From NCBI GenBank assembly GCA_934501475.1, contig CAKSUL010000018.1:1-34980 (forward strand): a stretch of DNA of 34,980 nt. Direction: 5' to 3'. Every line of letters starts with the position of its first letter. The stretch's first letter is position 1. The stretch is from an uncultured Roseovarius sp. (lineage in GTDB: Bacteria; Pseudomonadota; Alphaproteobacteria; Rhodobacterales; Rhodobacteraceae). The notes below the pieces were generated by a model that was not told the origin of the DNA, did no database searches, and saw nothing but the letters and a program-made list of their open reading frames with translations. Position numbers and translations under genes: made by a program. Of the stretch, positions 26,642 through 34,980 are shown piece after piece.

Positions 26642-27381
26642 TGTCCGAGGATCTGGTTGAGAAACAGTTTCGCGCGGTCTGTTTGCGGGTTGCTGAAAAA
26701 CGTGTCGGGCGGGGATATCTCGACGATTCGCCCCGCCTCCATGAACACCAAGCGATCCGCCACCTTGCGCGCGAAACCCATCTCATGCGTGACGACGACC
26801 ATTGTCATGCCGCTGTCTGCCAGATCGACCATGACATCCAGCACCTCACCGATCATTTCCGGGTCCAGCGCCGATGTCGGCTCGTCAAACAGCATCACGC
26901 GCGGTTCCATGCACAGCGCGCGGGCGATGGCGACGCGCTGTTGCTGCCCCCCTGACAACTGGTCGGGGCGTTTGTCTGCCTGTTCGGGAATGCGCACGCG
27001 TTCCAGATATTTGCGCGCCAGCGTCTCGGCCTTGTCGCGAGGCATCCCGCGCACCTTGCGCGGGCCGATGGTCAGATTCTCCAGCACGCTCAGATGCGGA
27101 AACAGGTTGAACTGCTGAAACACCATGCCGACATCCTGACGTAGCGCGCGGATATCGGGCGCATCCGCGCGCATCTCGCGCCCGTCAACTGTCAGGCTGC
27201 CGCTGTCATGCGTCTCAAGCCCGTTGAAACACCGGATCAGCGTCGATTTGCCCGATCCCGAGGGGCCGCACACGACGACACGTTCGCCCAGATGGACGGT
27301 CAGACTGACATCGCTGAGCGCCTGAAAGCCATTGAAATGCTTGTCGATATGTTGCGCCACAATGACCGGCTGCTGCATCAT
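26638..27381 (-). CDS. Polar amino acid ABC transporter ATP-binding protein (GlnQ/HisP class)
   Basis: 247 aa: Walker [14 protein letters not shown] (about 38-50), [18 protein letters not shown]-loop (typical of amino acid importers), signature [15 protein letters not shown], Walker [15 protein letters not shown], switch [10 protein letters not shown]. The frame is open to 27444; I use the first of two adjacent ATGs at 27381, with AGGGAC about 10 nt upstream. First gene of the operon (ATPase, permease, binding protein, permease), an order less usual than binding protein first. Confidence 0.91.
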
Positions 27382-27487
27382 CAAAATCACGTCCCTGTCT
27401 CGGTCTGACACAGATAGGGTATTCTGGCTCAAGGCAACCGCCAAGGCGCAAATATATCTCCCATAGCATTAGAGATTTCGCGCGCAT

Positions 27488-27518
27488 CGGGCTCAGGACA
27501 TGTCTTGACCCGAGCCCG
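27488..27518. terminator. Inverted repeat after the response regulator
   Basis: CGGGCTC at 27488-27494 and GAGCCCG at 27512-27518 form a 7-bp stem beyond the stop of the minus-strand response regulator. No T-run; possible but weak terminator. Confidence 0.4.
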
Positions 27519-27525
27519 GAGCGTC

Positions 27526-27921
27526 TCAGGCGCGCCCGGCCTCGGCGTTGACGGCCGACAGGATCAGATCGCCGAGTGTCAGCGGATCAAAGGGCTTCAC
27601 GATCACGGCGATGCCACCTGCGTCCTTCAACGCGGCGATCTCACCGTCATGCGCCCGCGCCGTCATGAAGATCGCCGGGGTGCTGGCATATTCGGGCAAC
27701 TCGCGCAGTTTGACCAACAGGGTATCCCCGGTCATTTCGGGCATCATCACATCCAGCAACAGGATATCGGCGTGATAGTCTGCGGCCACGTCCAGCGCTT
27801 CGGTCGGGCTGAGGCATTGCAGCAACTCGAAGCGGTCTGACAGCTGCAATGCAATTCTGGCTATTTCCTGAACGTCCCGATCGTCCTCGACGTGAAGTAT
27901 CTTCAATTTTTCCTGCAACAC
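27526..27921 (-). CDS. Single-domain response regulator
   Basis: 131 aa, a receiver and nothing more: ILHVEDDRDV acidic pocket (E12, D13, D14), phospho-acceptor D57 in LLLDVMMPEMTGD, threonine region IFMTARA and lysine in VIVKPFDP. It lacks an output domain, so it must act through protein contacts or as a phosphate shuttle. The frame is open to 27990 inside the kinase gene; GTG 27921 has AAGG 8 nt upstream and lies 20 nt after the kinase stop. Other candidate starts are GTG 27930 and TTG 27906. It is most likely the partner of the large kinase just upstream. Confidence 0.88.
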   Translation of the reverse strand: MLQEKLKILHVEDDRDVQEIARIALQLSDRFELLQCLSPTEALDVAADYHADILLLDVMMPEMTGDTLLVKLRELPEYASTPAIFMTARAHDGEIAALKDAGGIAVIVKPFDPLTLGDLILSAVNAEAGRA

Positions 27922-27941
27922 ATTGATCACCTTATGGTCGT

Positions 27942-30900
27942 CTACACAAAAGCGGGCGCGCGGGTATCGCTGCGCAAGGCCCACAAACATTTCTTCGCTA
28001 TCTTATCCATGCGCAGGTCTCCTTGAGCAAGGTCAAGGTCGGCAAGATCAGCGGATGAAAGCGATACTTCCCGCGAAAGGGCGATAATACGGATATCGGG
28101 GTTGCGCTGCTTGAACTTCTGCAAGGCCGCCTCGTCTTCGGGGGTAACGGTGGCCCAGTTGACGATGATCGCCTCGAAACCGCCCTGCCCGACCCGCGAA
28201 AGACCCTCGGAAACCGTGGCCACATTCTCGAGCGTGCAGGCGCGGCCAAGGGATTTGCCCAACAGGTCCGAGAATGCGGTATCAGGCTCGACATGGATGA
28301 ACCCGGCCTGCGTGATCACATCGGATGGCATCACAACCGCGCCATTTGGCAAACGCACCCGAAACACCGTGCCCGTGCCTTCGGCGCTGTCAAAGTCGAT
28401 CATGCCGCCCATGTTCTCGACCAGCGACTTGGCGATGCTCAGCCCAAGGCCGGTCCCGCCGTTCTTGCGGGTTGCAGAACTGTCCGCCTGCGAGAAGGGC
28501 TGAAAAACCTTGTCGTGATAGCTGTCGGGAATGCCTGACCCGTGATCCCTGACCTCGATCACGATGTTGTCCTTGCTCTCGGACAATGACACTTCCACCG
28601 TCTGCCCGCGGTCCGAGTATTTGACCGCATTGGACAGAAGATTGAGCAGGACCTGTTCCAGCCGTGCGGCGTCGGTCCAGTATCTGACACGGCCCTGCGG
28701 CAATGTGGTTTCAAAGCCGACACCGCCGGTGTCCGCGATCGGCGTGGCGGCGACGACGGCCTCGTTGATCACGTCGTTGATGTCGTGAAGCGCGTAGTGA
28801 AAGCGCATCTTGCGGGTCGAGACCTTTTCCAGATCCAGAAGATCGTTCAGCAGTCTTGCCAGCCGGTCAGAATTGCCCTGTGCGATGGACAAGAGGCTGC
28901 GCACATCATCCGGCAACCTGTCACTGGCGGTTCCGATGACCAGATCAACCGCGCCCTTGATCGATGTCAGCGGCGTGCGCAATTCATGGCTCATGTTGGC
29001 AAAGAATTCGCGGTTGTTCTTTTCGATCGCCTTGCGCTGGCTGATATCGACGAATTGCGCGATGAAGAAATCATTGTCCACGCCACTGCTGCGGGCGCGC
29101 GACACGCTGAGCAGCATCCACATTTCCTGACCCGATTTGTGAAAACAGCGGCCCTCGACCTTGCATATGCTGACATTTCCGTTGCGCAGATGTTCGATCG
29201 CGCGGAGCATGTCCTTCAGGTCTGCGGGGTGGATCAGGGTCTGGAAGTTGCGGCTCAAAAGTTCATCCGGCGAATAGCCGGTCAGCCGCCCCAATGCCTG
29301 ATTGACGCGGGTGAACAGGCCCGCCGCATCCAGAAGCGCAAGAGGCACGGGCGCGCTGTCCACGATATCGGCGAACTGGCTGCGGCTTTCGCGCAGTTTT
29401 TCGTTGGCGTCGTGCAATTCGGTGAAATCGGTCTGCGAACCGATCAGGCGGATCGGCTTGCCGTCGTCGTCGGTGCCTGCGACGCTGGTGTTGGATTTCA
29501 TCCAGCGCCAAATGCCCGGTGCGACCTCGATCCGGTATTCGCACTGCGAGCGGGCGGCAGTGCCGTCGATACATTCCTGATTGGACGCCAGCACAATCCC
29601 GAGATCGTCGGGGTGAATACGTTTCAGGAACTCATCCTGCGGGTTGTCGGCCATCGTCTTGCGGTCCAGCCGCAACAGGCTGACCCACGAATCCGAAACG
29701 ACCGACCTGCCGGTTGTCAGATCAATGTCATAAACGCCGATCTCGGCCGCATTCAGGGCAAGGTTCATCCGGTGTTCGGCCTCGCGCAGATGGTCGGTAA
29801 CGGCCTGTTCTTGCGTGATATCTTCAAACAGCACGATATAGCGCAGTTCGCCCAGCTTGTTGCGCCATTCATTCACCTGCGCCTTGAGACACAGGGATTT
29901 TCCCGATCTGGTCCGGCTCTTGAGGTGAATCGTGCCATTCCACGGCTCTGTCGGTATCTCCGGAATGAAATTGCACAGCACGGCACCGACAAGATCGGAT
30001 TCCTCGAATTCGAACATGTTCAGAAAGGCCGGGTTGACCGACAGGATCCGACCCGTGGAATCATGTAGTGAAATGCCGATCATCGCATTGTCGACAATCG
30101 CCCGTGTCTGATCCGCATTGGCCTTGAGTTCGCGGGTCTGGTCCTCGACTTCGCGCTCGATCTCGCGGGTGCGGCGCGCGTGGGTAAAGGTGCTGAGGCC
30201 GATCAGCACCGTAAAGGTCAGGCCAAACAACCCCAGGAAAAGCGGCAGAAGCGTGGCCTGCGATGCCGCAAAAAGCGGGGTGGCATGCCAGACAAGGGTG
30301 AAATCCTGCCCATAGAGGCGAACGATCCTGGTTTCCTGGAATCCGGGGGGCGCATCGAATGCGAGATTGCTGGAAAAGACCTGCTCTGCGGTTTCCATAT
30401 CGGTGCCGAAATAGACGGTCAGGCCAAAATCGCGCTCTTGTGCCGGGGAAAGCTCGGAAAACAGATCGGCGCTGCGAAAGGGCGCATAGGACAGCCCGGT
30501 CATGACGGCGTTCGGGTCCGCCCCCCGCCCGCTGGGCGCGCCCTCAAAGAAGGGGCGGAACATGATGAAACATGGTTCGTCGGTGTTGTATTGAACCAGG
30601 CGCGTCGGGTCCGACAGGACCGCTTCACCGCTGTCCCTCGCCTGCTCCATCGCCTTGCGCGAGCTTTCGCGAAATGACACGTCCAGCCCGATTGCCGCCT
30701 GATTCTGATCCTCGGGCGACACGTATTGGACGACAAGCGCCGCATCGCCCTCAACCGGGGGATGGATGGCAAAGCCGCGCGTCTGCAGGCTGCGCGCAAG
30801 TTGCGCATAGGTTCCGTCGCTCTTGCTGACGCTTGCGATCCAGCCAAGGCCGCCGATCTTTGGCAGTTTTCGCTCGATCTGGATCGCGGCCACATAATCG

Positions 30901-31148
30901 GCCCATTCGCGCGCCGAAATGTTCTTTGACGTATGAAAAAGGCCCGCCGCCCCGTCCAGCGCGGCCTCGATATCGTGAAGCCGCAATTTCAGCGCATCCA
31001 GGTTTTCCCCGGCGAGCGACGCAAACATCTCGCTGCTGTGGCGGGTTTGAAACCGGGTGACGGCCAGGACTGAAACCACGGTCAGGATCAAACAGGCGAA
31101 CATCATGGCAAAACGGATCGCCAGGAATGGTCTGTTCTTCGATGCCAC
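27942..31148 (-). CDS. CHASE-PAS-PAS-PAS histidine kinase with degenerate receiver
   Basis: About 1068 aa. TM1 is close to the N terminus (about 7-30), followed by an extracytoplasmic CHASE-type sensor (about 40-295), TM2 (about 310-330), a short coiled coil ([20 protein letters not shown]), three PAS domains (about 350-465, 475-600, 605-725), HisKA with [18 protein letters not shown] (H721), HATPase with [17 protein letters not shown] and [13 protein letters not shown], and a C-terminal receiver-like fold (about 950-1068). In the latter the phospho-acceptor aspartate is replaced by N997 (AIIVNWATV). The frame is open to 31406, but GTG 31148 has AGAGGG about 9-10 nt upstream and immediately precedes TM1. 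A perfect hairpin lies 23 bp upstream of the GTG. Signal unknown. Confidence 0.87.
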
Positions 31149-31170
31149 GCGTCTTACCCTCTTTAAGCGA

Positions 31171-31205
31171 TTCAGGTTCAAGCCGGGATATGGCTTGAAC
31201 CTGAA
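31171..31205. promoter_or_regulatory. Perfect 14-bp-stem hairpin upstream of the sensor kinase
   Basis: TTCAGGTTCAAGCC at 31171-31184 and GGCTTGAACCTGAA at 31192-31205, loop of 7 nt, no mismatch. It lies 23-57 bp upstream of the GTG start of the kinase. Too long and perfect for chance; it may be a repressor operator or a leader RNA hairpin close to the ribosome site. No T-run on either strand, so not a terminator. From 31206 to 31313 I see no further feature. Confidence 0.75.
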
Positions 31206-31313
31206 ATGCACAACACCCATCCGGTTTGCGGGTTTTTCAAGACGCCCTGGTGATAGGGGCCTGTCCTGACGCACCGCAAATCTCACATGCGCCGAAGACC
31301 CCCGCGGCGGCGC

Positions 31314-31338
31314 TGACGCATTCCTCACGGTGGGACAC
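31314..31338 (+). repeat. Left terminal inverted repeat
   Basis: Begins TGACGCATTCC, then TCAC, then GGTGGGACAC. The first 11 and last 10 bases are identical to the inverse of 34954-34978; only the four middle bases differ. Confidence 0.88.
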
Positions 31339-31453
31339 AGATATTTGATAATTGTGGATCTGTGTGAAACTGGAATATGGCCGCTATCCAGAAGGGTGGC
31401 GGCCATATTTTGTATGACGGTTTATTTCAGGCGCTACATCTGGCTTTATGTAG
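31335..31453. repeat. Left subterminal hairpin cluster
   Basis: Three inverted repeats in a row: ACACAGAT (31335-31342) with ATCTGTGT (31358-31365); AATATGGCCGC (31374-31384) with GCGGCCATATT (31399-31409), perfect 11 bp; CTACAT (31434-31439) with ATGTAG (31448-31453). From here to 31650 I see no gene. Candidate transposase-binding sites or protection against read-through from outside. Confidence 0.65.
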
Positions 31454-31650
31454 GGCGTCTCAACTGCTTTCGCGCTTTAATGCCTTCTCGAAATCAGAAT
31501 CACAAGTCCGACGGAAGCGGCTTCTTGTGCAAATTTCGAACTACTTACACGGCCTTACTTGATTATCGCCGTTAATAACCCTCTTGATTTTGAGAGCTGA
31601 CCAAGTGGCACCATTTCCTTCTTATACTTCATCGAAACAGGTGCTCAAAA

Positions 31651-32145
31651 ATGAAATTTGTCAAAAACCTCTTTATTGCTATCGGCGTCATTCTGTCAGT
31701 TCTATTGGTTATCGGAATTATGGTCCCGGACCCTCAGTCTCAAAGAGGACAGATTACCTCTTCTGGTTCAACGAGTAACAACCAGGACTCTTCTTGTCAG
31801 CATCCAGCGACACCCCCGCCTGGCTCATTCGGAAAATCAGATATCGCTGCCATTGCAGAGGCTTCCAGAGGAAATGAGGCGCGCTTCGACCGCGACTACA
31901 AGTCTCGCACCTTCTATGATTGCATGCATTTCGACGGACTTGAGCGGGAAATTATCGGAGCTGGGTGGCGCCTTCGACTGAAGGCTTCATCGCGATCCTG
32001 GATGGCCGACGCTGTCTGCTTAATCGAAGATAGCACAGCACGGACTCTCGTGGATTTGAATGAGGGAGAGATGATCCATATTCAAGGAACTATCCAAACG
32101 ACATCAATTGGGACCTTGCAGCTCAAGAGCTGCCGCATCAACTAA
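31651..32145 (+). CDS. Membrane-anchored hypothetical protein, possible OB fold (element cargo)
   Basis: 164 aa, not recognised with certainty. Residues 5-25 form one hydrophobic helix (signal anchor; no lipobox cysteine). A Ser/Asn/Gln-rich linker follows (about 28-55). The C-terminal part (about 60-164) has the pattern of short beta strands seen in tRNA_anti-like/OB-fold secreted proteins: GAGWRLRLKA, ADAVCLIED, EGEMIHIQGTIQ, GTLQLKSCRI; cysteines 50, 90, 122 and 161 could pair in the periplasm. AT-richer than the host. It is the only other gene in the element, so either cargo or a mobility helper. Confidence 0.6.
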   Translation: MKFVKNLFIAIGVILSVLLVIGIMVPDPQSQRGQITSSGSTSNNQDSSCQHPATPPPGSFGKSDIAAIAEASRGNEARFDRDYKSRTFYDCMHFDGLEREIIGAGWRLRLKASSRSWMADAVCLIEDSTARTLVDLNEGEMIHIQGTIQTTSIGTLQLKSCRIN

Positions 32146-32171
32146 TTGATATCGATCGGGCATCAGTTCAT

Positions 32172-32202
32172 GGCTACGCCTGTGAGGGCGTAGCCGATTT
32201 TT
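32172..32202. terminator. Bidirectional terminator between the two element genes
   Basis: GGCTACGCC at 32172-32180 and GGCGTAGCC at 32187-32195 form a perfect 9-bp stem, followed on the plus strand by GATTTTTC. The stop codon of the minus-strand 815-aa gene (32174-32176) lies inside the stem. Confidence 0.82.
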
Positions 32203-34621
32203 CTTGCGGCTCTAAGTCAGGCAATTTGGGCGCATGATCTGGCCCCGTGTTTTTCCGCGATCTTTCAAACCGGGCACCGAACTTCGTGCCCATGTAAAGC
32301 CACGGTCGATACAGAACACGGTAGATGTCGGGTGGATCTCGTGATCCGTCTTTTCTCTTGGTGTAGGCGTCCATACCGTGACGCATCGCGGGGGTCAGTT
32401 TCGCGGGCACCCGTCGGGCCCTGGGAGGTAGTTCCACCACCTCGTCCGTGCCGGGGATCCGCAGGGATCGCGACATCAGCTTCGGTGGGTCGATCAGGTC
32501 GTCTATTTCCTCGTAAGGGCAAGTATATCGCCGAGCTTCGAAGAAGTTGTAATGAACCCGGTAGATATTCAGGAGTGAGACCAGTGTCTTGGGGTTGAAG
32601 ATTGCTCCCTGAATGTAAGATCCGCCGATCCGCGCCCCGCCGCTGCCAGCCCTATCCGCCACGCTGATGCGCTCACGAAGCGAGTTCATGAAGGTGCTGA
32701 CGGGTTGTAGCGTAGCTTTGTAGATCCAAGGCGCAATTTCTTGGCGCAGATCTGGCGAGAGGGTCGCTTGATTGAACGACAAGCGTTTCAAGGTTTGCCG
32801 CAAGGGGCTTGGAACAATCGGGAATCCGACGACTTTGCCGATCTCGCCACTCGCCTCGGTTGGCGACCTTACCCACAAGGAGGGAAAGGTGCCGGACTGA
32901 TAATTTGATATCTGGAAGTGCGACGCCGTTCCACGCACGGCAGCCTTTAAGCCGTCGGCAATGAAAGCTTCGGTGATTGTTTGCGGATCGGTCTCATAAT
33001 CGAAGCGCCCAGAGAACATGCCATCATTGTAGAATTGCTTGCGGTCTTGGCGGTAGCTATTCATCTTTCGCAGCTTTTCCGGTTTTGTCGCCTTTTTATT
33101 GAACGATATCGCCAGCCAGGCGAAGCGGTTCTCGCGGATTTCCTTGCCGAAGATGTGCGGCAATAGCGGCGGCAGGGTTGCCTCCTGCTCCGTTGTAAGA
33201 ACAATCGACCCTTCGGGCAGCATTTCTTTCAAAAGGATAAAATGAGCGCCTTTCGTGTAAGTATCCCGGGTGGTCATTCCCTTGAATGATCCCCGATCGT
33301 CGGTATCGTCGATTGTAAAACCGAACCAGCCCTCGGAAATCTCCCTGATTCTGGTGATCATATCGTTCGTGCGATTTATGATGTCGGTGCGCGCGTCCTG
33401 CTGATCCTTGTTTTTCTTTGGCATCCGTCGCTTTGCGCGCGCCTGAAAGGCACGGATTTCATTGACGCAAGCCGCGAAGAAATGGCGTTCGTGGAATCGG
33501 CCGGTTGGCCGCTGCCAAGAGAACTTCGGAGCAGAGCCAACATTGCTTCCGGGGTAATGCTGGGCGAGGTTCTGTGGTTGCCCCTGATCGTCGAGATAGG
33601 TGGTGTTGAACAGATCGAGCGGCGTTGCCCGTGGATCGAAATCGACATCCATCCGATACACATAGCCACTGTGCGCATCTGCAGTGACGGCGCAGTTCAA
33701 TTGGGTGTTGCGCCGGTCGGTTGCCGTCTCCCAATTCACCGTTAGGACCATATCGTCATGGCTCAGGTGATGTTCGACCGCCTTGCCGCTTTTCTCGACC
33801 TTCTCTTTCCAGCGACGCAGCATTTCCCTCTCATAGGCGAGATAGACCTCTTCCAGCCAGGCGATCCGGTCGTAGATCCTCGACATGCCGATGGTCTTGC
33901 CGTTGGCGGCAATTCTGACCGACCTCTGAATATCGGCAATGCCTTCGCTGTTCAGCAGCGCTCCAAGAATGCGGAGATTGTCTGATGTGTTCTTTTGACC
34001 AGCGTGTGGCAGAGAAATCGCAAACCGAGCACCCTTCTTGCCCTTGCAAGGCTTGTGGAGCACCCTGATCGACTTCGGCGCAGCATTTCTCTTCGTAGGT
34101 TTGCCGGTGCGATCCTTGGTGCGCTCATGGATGCCATTCAGGACGAACTGGTCGGTATCGGCCAGAAGATGTGTGCCACACGCGCCGCATGCCGGTCCGT
34201 CTAACACGCCGTTGTAGTTCCGAAGTCGCGCCACCTCTTCTTCGAGATGATCCGGAGAGAGGATCGAAAACCCTGACTTGCAGAAAGAGCCATCCCTCGT
34301 CTGTCCGAGACATCGGACGGTCCGCTGGTCCGACCATTCATGTGGATTGCCGCTGTATGCGAATGCCGTCGATACACGGCGGTGCTTCTTCTTTGTGCCG
34401 GACAGCTTGTAGGCACCGGGGCCATTCATCTCGAACAGCTTGAGCTGTTCAGCAATGAGCTCTGGACGCTCTTTTCCCCATTTCTCTCGCCGAAAAGCAC
34501 GATCGGTCATTGGCTGCCCGAAGTTCGAACAGTCCGGATTACCGCAAGTGTTGAGATGATGTTCCCCCGTGCCCGGATAGAGCTGCGAGAGTTTGAAGTT
34601 GAATGTTGCCAAGCCTGCCAT
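32174..34621 (-). CDS. Large cysteine-pair protein, candidate transposase of the element
   Basis: 815 aa, cytoplasmic, not matched with certainty to a family. N-terminal part: LNTCGNPDCSNFG (C26, C31), VRCLGQTRDGSFC (C104, C114) and PACGACG (C145, C148) look like zinc-ribbon knuckles; CxNPxCxNFG recalls the start of IS1-type and related transposases. A coiled, basic helix (about 255-285) follows. The middle (about 290-330) has LTVNWETATDRRNTQLNCAV and TADAHSGYVYRMDVDFDP, a beta-rich run with acidic residues as in RNase H-fold transposases; a second acidic segment is near LTTEQEATLPPLLPHIFG, and a C-terminal SLLNIYRVHYNFFEARRY recalls the end of DDE cores. Start ATG 34621 has GAGG 6-7 nt upstream. 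The catalytic triad is not proven. Confidence 0.65.
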   Translation of the reverse strand: MAGLATFNFKLSQLYPGTGEHHLNTCGNPDCSNFGQPMTDRAFRREKWGKERPELIAEQLKLFEMNGPGAYKLSGTKKKHRRVSTAFAYSGNPHEWSDQRTVRCLGQTRDGSFCKSGFSILSPDHLEEEVARLRNYNGVLDGPACGACGTHLLADTDQFVLNGIHERTKDRTGKPTKRNAAPKSIRVLHKPCKGKKGARFAISLPHAGQKNTSDNLRILGALLNSEGIADIQRSVRIAANGKTIGMSRIYDRIAWLEEVYLAYEREMLRRWKEKVEKSGKAVEHHLSHDDMVLTVNWETATDRRNTQLNCAVTADAHSGYVYRMDVDFDPRATPLDLFNTTYLDDQGQPQNLAQHYPGSNVGSAPKFSWQRPTGRFHERHFFAACVNEIRAFQARAKRRMPKKNKDQQDARTDIINRTNDMITRIREISEGWFGFTIDDTDDRGSFKGMTTRDTYTKGAHFILLKEMLPEGSIVLTTEQEATLPPLLPHIFGKEIRENRFAWLAISFNKKATKPEKLRKMNSYRQDRKQFYNDGMFSGRFDYETDPQTITEAFIADGLKAAVRGTASHFQISNYQSGTFPSLWVRSPTEASGEIGKVVGFPIVPSPLRQTLKRLSFNQATLSPDLRQEIAPWIYKATLQPVSTFMNSLRERISVADRAGSGGARIGGSYIQGAIFNPKTLVSLLNIYRVHYNFFEARRYTCPYEEIDDLIDPPKLMSRSLRIPGTDEVVELPPRARRVPAKLTPAMRHGMDAYTKRKDGSRDPPDIYRVLYRPWLYMGTKFGARFERSRKNTGPDHAPKLPDLEPQEKSATPSQA

Positions 34622-34827
34622 CGGAACCTCGGATCATTGCGGTTCCGCCTAAAGTCGTTTTCACGAACAGTAAGCAGAAAACCCGCACGGAGTGGAGTCG
34701 AAACGGAAGAAATTTCCGCAACTTCCGCTTTCGTGCGAAGGTCAGGCTTGTGGTAGAAGAGTATTGGCTGTATCTTCAAAAACAGAAGGAAAATGCTACG
34801 AAATGCAAACTTTCTTTCTGACCCCGA

Positions 34828-34941
34828 GGACGCAAATTGCCTCCGAGAAAATTTTCTCGGGCAAGGCGTCCCTTTAGCGCCTTACGGCGCGCTGAATTCA
34901 CCTATAAATAACAATAACCTGCCGCGCATCGCGCGACAGGT
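34828..34941. repeat. Right subterminal hairpin cluster
   Basis: An 18-bp perfect palindrome, CCGAGAAAATTTTCTCGG (34843-34860), is extended outwards by TTGC/GCAA and GGACGC/GCGTCC to span 34828-34871. Then GCGCC-TTAC-GGCGC (about 34877-34890), and ACCTGCCGCGC (34917-34927) with GCGCGACAGGT (34931-34941), one mismatch. Between the 815-aa gene start (34621) and 34828 I see no gene; the promoter of that gene probably lies there. Confidence 0.7.
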
Positions 34942-34953
34942 CTTGAGCTTGTC

Positions 34954-34978
34954 GTGTCCCACCACACGGAATGCGTCA
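34954..34978 (-). repeat. Right terminal inverted repeat
   Basis: Read inward on the minus strand it begins TGACGCATTCC, then GTGT, then GGTGGGACAC, matching the left end at 21 of 25 positions. Only two bases (CG) follow before the window ends. Confidence 0.88.
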
Positions 34979-34980
34979 CG

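Follow-up and report, generated by a model that had tools for sequence, protein, structure and literature searches.

Parts of two papers (PMC4923244, PMC5678879) describe how the IS1182-family elements IS1272 and TnSha1 insert into hairpins, several of them confirmed terminators, with no preference for primary sequence; insertion is in the stem, not the loop, and the hairpin is deleted or replaced without a duplication. Nearer in its protein is Tn7491, a 3.3-kb, ISSsu9-like transposon of Listeria and Staphylococcus that carries dfrG. In the passages available from its description (PMC10763498), which do not mention terminators, one copy sits between the convergent genes csbB and saeS, where a terminator would be expected. 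Here we analyse a transposon in a 34,980-nt stretch of contig CAKSUL010000018.1 from an uncultured Roseovarius sp. (the window), together with its relatives in other genomes. Unlike IS1272 and the IS1182 family, they do not replace the hairpin and they leave a 9-base-pair (bp) duplication. We propose, with a probability of roughly 0.9 for the proposal as a whole, that they form a family of DDE transposons which insert with a 9-bp stagger into the loop of a terminator and compensate for the damage with inward-reading terminators at their own ends.

Positions 31314..34978 of the window are a complete DNA transposon of 3,665 bp with terminal inverted repeats, a transposase and one passenger gene, an anatomy repeated in related loci. 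With the transposase strand (-) taken as its orientation, the left repeat on the transposase side (34954..34978, (-); inward TGACGCATTCCGTGTGGTGGGACAC) is 25/25 identical at the related locus L002, and the right repeat on the cargo side (31314..31338, (+); TGACGCATTCCTCACGGTGGGACAC) is supported by the repeat search and by relatives. The two 25-bp repeats are identical at 21/25 positions, all mismatches falling inside one 4-bp core, and no other of the 7 inverted pairs in 30800-34980 is as long. Guanine-plus-cytosine (GC) content is 53.2% in the block and 62.2% in the window to its left. The uninterrupted open reading frame (ORF) of an 815-aa protein (32174..34621, (-)) would encode a DDE-type transposase of RNase H fold, as judged from the ORF list, alignment and fold comparison; beside it lies a 164-aa passenger protein with a hydrophobic N-terminus and no family match at E<=0.001 (31651..32145, (+)). 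An earlier note on this DNA had already proposed an apparently intact transposable element here, an AT-richer 3665-bp block between 25-bp repeats with a single protein of about 815 aa, one small gene and hairpin-rich subterminal regions, and all of this agrees with the repeats, composition, reading frames and strong terminator-like hairpins found, as well as with relatives that have duplications and empty sites. It had called the protein cysteine-rich, which 10 Cys in 815 residues does not bear out, though 6 of them are invariant across 82 aligned sequences, the window's included. It could not place the ends in a known insertion-sequence family, and no library model claims the protein, but distant kin do exist (Tn7491 and a sister group described below). 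The element's most unusual trait, insertion into terminators, was absent from it.

A total of 128 proteins, the 815-aa protein itself (P0001) included, match it at E<=0.001, with 120 of them among the matches listed. One scan of species genomes yielded 60 loci encoding relatives, which going by their record titles are 55 in Rhodobacterales, 3 in unplaced Alphaproteobacteria and 2 in Salinarimonas. A left end like that of the window lies upstream of the transposase gene in 58/60 (score >=15 of 20), a count with no chance level behind it, the five scoring patterns having been derived from the same 60 loci. Both ends were accepted in 32/60 loci (right score at least 16 of 20), and the remaining 28, with no right end scoring 16/20, comprise contig ends, fragments, and lost or diverged ends. 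An exact 9-bp target duplication flanks 24 of the 32 accepted elements and none of 992 cross-paired flanks. The duplication is 10 bp at L022 and 8 bp as scored at L019 (9 if its left end is taken one base shorter), and at L027, L033, L044 and L052 the two copies agree in 7-8 of 9 bases. Terminal inverted repeats with a duplication of fixed length, exactly 9 bp at these 24/32 loci, mark the elements as DNA transposons, and the search for other copies and for target-site duplications that the earlier note had recommended turned out positive on both counts. The shortest element is L061 (1.4 kb, decayed) and the longest L035 (8.5 kb). Leisingera aquimarina carries three insertions (L033, L051, L061) and Aliiroseovarius lamellibrachiae two (L041, L048), each at a different site. 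At L018:5454-5777 the left end is doubled with N between the copies, likely a scaffold join or artefact.

Rebuilding the uninterrupted site was possible for 30 insertions, L003 and L008 being left out as they have no duplication. The usual rebuilt site consists of an A-tract, a GC arm, the 9-bp duplication, a complementary GC arm and a T-tract (for example, AAAAAAGGGCAG[GCCGCGAGG]GCTGCCCTTTTTT), and by its sequence the target of the family appears to be the loop of an intrinsic transcription terminator. The 30 sites fold with a mean energy of -20.9 kcal/mol, 900 random windows from this DNA with -10.3, and a value of -15 is attained by 26/30 sites and by 13% of random windows. Runs of at least four T on either strand accompany 28/30 sites (6.2% at random). 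The mean number of mirrored Watson-Crick pairs, out of 10, is 5.67 when centred on the duplication, falls to 4.5 and 4.9 at -1 and +1 bp and to 2.8 and 2.6 at -2 and +2, and compares with 4.47 for mispaired flanks and 2.66 for random positions. In a uniform terminator test 29/30 sites pass, as do 396/6000 (6.6%) random positions and 100/1219 (8.2%) positions outside long ORFs. The arms are specific to each other, since a site's own right flank gives -20.9 where mispaired ones give -12.8; in 16 cases it is the best of all 30, and in 25 it is one of the best three. No two left flanks have more than ten 16-mers in common.

Related genomes that lack the insert, which the earlier note had suggested looking for, were found at three sites. 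For this check the flanks were joined without the element and searched against genomes of the same genus, and the alignments show all three insertion sites uninterrupted in relatives. At L010, single alignments span the insertion point in 6/19 other genomes (the best at 93% over all 199 bases), while the carrier's own alignment splits into 1-141 and 133-199. At L005, 6/19 genomes match the whole query and a seventh, G1138, matches to base 121, with the carrier split into 1-107 and 99-251; at L021 the site is uninterrupted in 3/40 genomes and the carrier splits into 1-99 and 91-249. The overlap in each of the three carriers is exactly 9 bases. The other genomes match on one side only or in separate pieces, apart from two for L021 that have no match at all. 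In the printed alignments, five L010-site relatives retain the hairpin with its T-tract and one L021-site relative retains the hairpin; among the L005-site relatives a TTT or longer run follows the GC-rich arm in 5/6, L176 being the exception.

The ends of the elements themselves carry hairpins of a similar kind. Within 180 bp of the tip in 33 elements (the 32 accepted loci and the window), an inward terminator-like hairpin occurs at the left end in 31/33, at the right end in 25/33 and at both in 24/33, as against 12.3% of 660 random windows. In the window these are the left hairpin at 34916..34942 (-) with a T-rich tail and the right hairpin at 31374..31409 (+), whose T tail is weaker (folding energy -40.3, z -6.6 for 31330-31425). 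In each of the 31 elements with a left hairpin, it starts at a distance of 31-36 nt from the tip. An alignment of 29 of the 33 left ends (L017, L019, L033 and L044 excluded) keeps 98.3% of its pairs and has changes on both sides at 8/10 pairs, with 40 compensatory cells as against 8.2 in shuffles and a signal that is lost in slid versions of the alignment. Given this covariation, pairing in the left hairpin is probably under selection. The end hairpins would terminate transcription and may offset the damage done to the host terminator.

The protein itself is far from any described model. Searches of P0001 against Pfam, NCBIfam, PHROGs and PDB sequences gave nothing significant (best E 0.03), and at E<=1 it matches none of the IS1, IS1595 and IS256 models of Pfam and NCBIfam; the transposase of ISCth4, an IS256-family element, is 8% identical to it. 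Duplications are 8-9 bp in the IS1 family, with which the 9 bp seen here agree, and 8 bp in the IS1595 family, with which they disagree. The 815-aa protein has an RNase H-like fold, a match that does not prove function by itself, and its residues D289, E378, E478, E480 and E593 are invariant in the 82 aligned sequences. A helix-turn-helix-like region was spotted by eye, and the conserved N-terminal cysteines presumably bind zinc. Taken together, we infer that this protein is a DDE-type transposase and carries out catalysis.

A weak partial plasmid match of P0001 led to a sister group of proteins of about 600 aa (e.g., P0136). It resembles the present family in sequence (hhalign probability 100, E 3.2e-40 against family profile A2) and in that part of its sites are terminators, and differs in its shorter protein, in an Asp at the aligned third catalytic position and in ends that mostly start CAAG. 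One source labels P0136 'IS1 family transposase'; the zinc-ribbon/helix-turn-helix region of three sister proteins scores below the cut-off of the IS1 model (best 1.2e-10, 41.7 bits, cut-off 100). The Tn7491 transposase is likewise homologous to the present family nearly throughout (hhalign probability 98.3, E 1.4e-14, 528 columns against A2), although even with the sister group it shares only some 25% identity. Like the present family, Tn7491 has a 9-10-bp duplication and pairs a transposase with cargo, and its end core TTTTGGAGTACA resembles, by eye and over a short core, the TTTTGGGACAC of part of the family; unlike it, its transposase has 650 rather than 815 aa and its hosts are Bacillota. 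A Tn7491 copy on a Listeria innocua plasmid (L186:2332-5607) sits in a terminator, flanked by a 10-bp duplication, and the end found there matches the inverted repeat given in the published passages (PMC10763498). The terminator test was applied to 11 sister-group or Gram-positive sites whose duplication is exact, and 8 pass it (L001, L119, L123, L186, L187, L188, L189 and L190, the last without a clear T-run), with controls at 122/2200 and 46/660. Outside these 11 scored sites, L191 and L192, which are longer stretches of L115 and L116, show ends and split terminators by eye and no exact duplication; the ends of L120-L122 and L148 were found only in longer flanks, as L187-L190, and for L125-L132, L134 and L149 no ends flanked by a duplication were found.

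Spread was gauged with profiles. The family profile matches 21/345 genomes in the family of Leisingera aquimarina genome G001, and 4/385 in its class, namely G001 itself and three short weak matches; with scoring confined to the two best candidates of each genome, these counts may be low. The sister profile, with the top three candidates scored, matches 28/398 genomes in the phylum, many of these matches being weak or partial. None of 78 pattern matches in viral contigs was a relative, and in a plasmid megablast of 27000-34980 the best 20 of 37 records each aligned over about 1% of the query; these alignments lie in ABC-transporter DNA and none in the element.

Several observations weigh against our proposal. 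Movement is deduced from the comparison of sequences, and the window's own target is out of sight at the contig end. Exact 9-bp duplications are absent in 8/32 loci, L003 and L008 having none of any kind; L042 fails the terminator test, as do the sister-group sites L117, L118 and L124. The offset of the hairpin apex from the duplication centre, -0.1 +/- 1.0 bp, is partly built in, as the test admits only an apex within 4 nt, and the independent check on centring is the sliding mirrored-pair test. Mispaired flanks pass this lax test in 701/870 combinations because the sites have A/T tracts and GC-rich arms in common, so that the evidence for pairing must come from the comparison of own with mispaired flanks. 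At the element's ends, outward terminator readings are also common (left 21/33, right 12/33), so the inward direction is not exclusive; a stricter scan of the window gives 7 terminator-like sites as against 4.3 +/- 2.5 in shuffles, and its T-tail requirement detects the left-end hairpin and misses the right. As for the protein, Foldseek found no match at E<=0.001 for the transposase, and the S642 position, which aligns with the apparent third catalytic acid of the sister group, holds Ser, Ala or Gly throughout the 82 sequences.

Could the pattern arise in another way? Terminators lie between genes, where insertions are cheap, and near-random insertion followed by selection for harmless, gene-free terminator sites would fill them too; we consider this very improbable, given that 29/30 sites pass as against 8.2% (100/1219) of positions outside long ORFs, and that the dyad is strongest when centred on the duplication and has gone by +/-2 bp, a cut centred on the loop being something that selection for harmlessness would not explain. 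The half-hairpin on each side of nearly all copies might instead belong to a longer element with outward hairpin halves, an idea with practically nothing left in its favour once the arm sequences are seen to vary by site and element-free relatives to have the hairpin at the same place, which refutes it at three sites. A stronger contender, which we regard as possible but less than probable, is that a transposase dimer reads the A-tract and T-tract some 7-10 bp outside the 9-bp cut, with the hairpins a by-product. The first TTT follows the duplication at a median of 8 nt (26/30 sites, standard deviation 1.7), and on the other strand also at 8 nt (24/30 sites, standard deviation 2.8); against this, the spacing ranges over 7-14 and 5-18 nt, one tract is missing at some sites, and arm sequence varies while complementarity persists. 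Natural terminators combine all these features, so genomes cannot separate the reading of tracts from that of structure.

The end hairpins invite a similar question, as they might be transposase-binding or regulatory sites and not terminators. The narrow range of distances between the left hairpin and the tip (31-36 nt, 31 elements) and its conservation of sequence as well as pairing fit such a role; the T-rich sequence that follows it (TTTGATTTT in consensus) and the right hairpins, variable in sequence and position, do not, and we think the idea unlikely as a substitute for termination, although both functions may coexist. Under the proposal of terminator-directed insertion, the 815-aa transposase would act on the 25-bp ends and join them with a 9-bp stagger to DNA at a terminator loop; the insertion would split the host terminator, and the inward terminator inside each end would halt transcripts arriving from either side, so that the neighbouring gene would still terminate and the transposase would be insulated from read-through. 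The recognition cue could be an extruded hairpin or cruciform, the dyad of A- and T-tracts, or a transcription complex, and transposition could be cut-and-paste or replicative.

At the window's own insertion, the presumed arm of the split host terminator (CCCCCG, 31299..31304, (+)) is followed by the putative left copy of the target duplication (CGGCGGCGC, 31305..31313, (+)), both assigned from the pattern in relatives, and the partner arm would lie past the contig end. The contig stops 2 bp beyond the element, and these bases (34979-34980, CG) fit the start of CGGCGGCGC, with 2/9 visible. Assembly breaks are frequent at repeats, and a contig end beside the element would be in keeping with this. 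On the other side, the longest-ORF call for a CHASE/PAS histidine kinase (27942-31406, (-)) begins inside the transposon; the pre-insertion start of that gene was presumably left of 31314.

Cargo was surveyed in 29 elements, 12 of which have no space for it. Twenty cargo ORFs were scanned with Pfam, and PADLOC was run on eight of these, the L013 ORF and the window passenger. L022:8530-11473 holds a CBASS operon (patatin effector, oligonucleotide cyclase and E2-like protein), and the same three-gene set was recognised by eye, from similar proteins, at L037:8637-11481. Further cargo includes a PD-Lambda-1 defence protein (L041:8384-9841), an NsnA-like/GmrSD_N protein with a HEPN protein (L019:8511-10122), an AlbA-domain protein (L005), a MerR regulator with a pyridine-nucleotide disulphide oxidoreductase (L020), and transport or metabolic genes (L035, L053). 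By eye, part of the 'cargo' ORFs in L033 and L035 are fragments of the element's own broken transposase. Cargo ORFs of L013, L021 and L027 had no Pfam match, and the window's 164-aa passenger had none in either scan. Among sister-group relatives, an element of about 2 kb lies in a terminator of a Pseudomonas aeruginosa conjugative plasmid (L001:5465-7474), some kilobases from GES-1 and aac(6') genes. The chromosomal frames of about 500 aa at L126-L132, related to the sister group and without detected ends in the flanks examined, are possibly domesticated, and two Salinivibrio relatives carry the annotation 'lactate dehydrogenase'.

In the listed titles and abstract starts of the open literature, with ISfinder and most subscription papers outside that range, we found no description of the present family or of terminator-loop insertion with duplication. 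In a 2026 paper on Sulfitobacter mobile elements (PMC13386836), the terms 'terminator', 'inverted repeat' and 'target site' do not appear, and the main text of a Paracoccus mobilome paper (PMC3281130) has no ISNCY, '9-bp', 'new family', 'IS1 family' or 'unclassified'. One paper's table classes ISSsu9 as IS1595 (PMC11366657). ISPa14, considered as possibly a large IS1 relative, is 788 bp according to passages of PMC8552602. The ends and the duplication are those of an ordinary DDE transposon; what sets the element apart is a transposase family without a model, together with an unusual target and end architecture.

The present family thus offers a landing site that is predictable and usually harmless, has no fixed sequence and is accompanied by normal 9-bp duplications, so that targeting guided by structure can be put directly to the test. 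Among Rhodobacterales it also offers a means of carrying CBASS and other cargo, and a target rule is suggested for the clinically relevant dfrG transposon, for which the available Tn7491 passages state none. More tentatively, and at somewhat less than even odds, a broad superfamily reaching from Rhodobacterales to Bacillota may recognise the folded (or transcribing) terminator hairpin, with at least the present family delivering its own end terminators; such 'terminator-exchange' transposons would bring genes for resistance and for defence against phages to near-silent sites.

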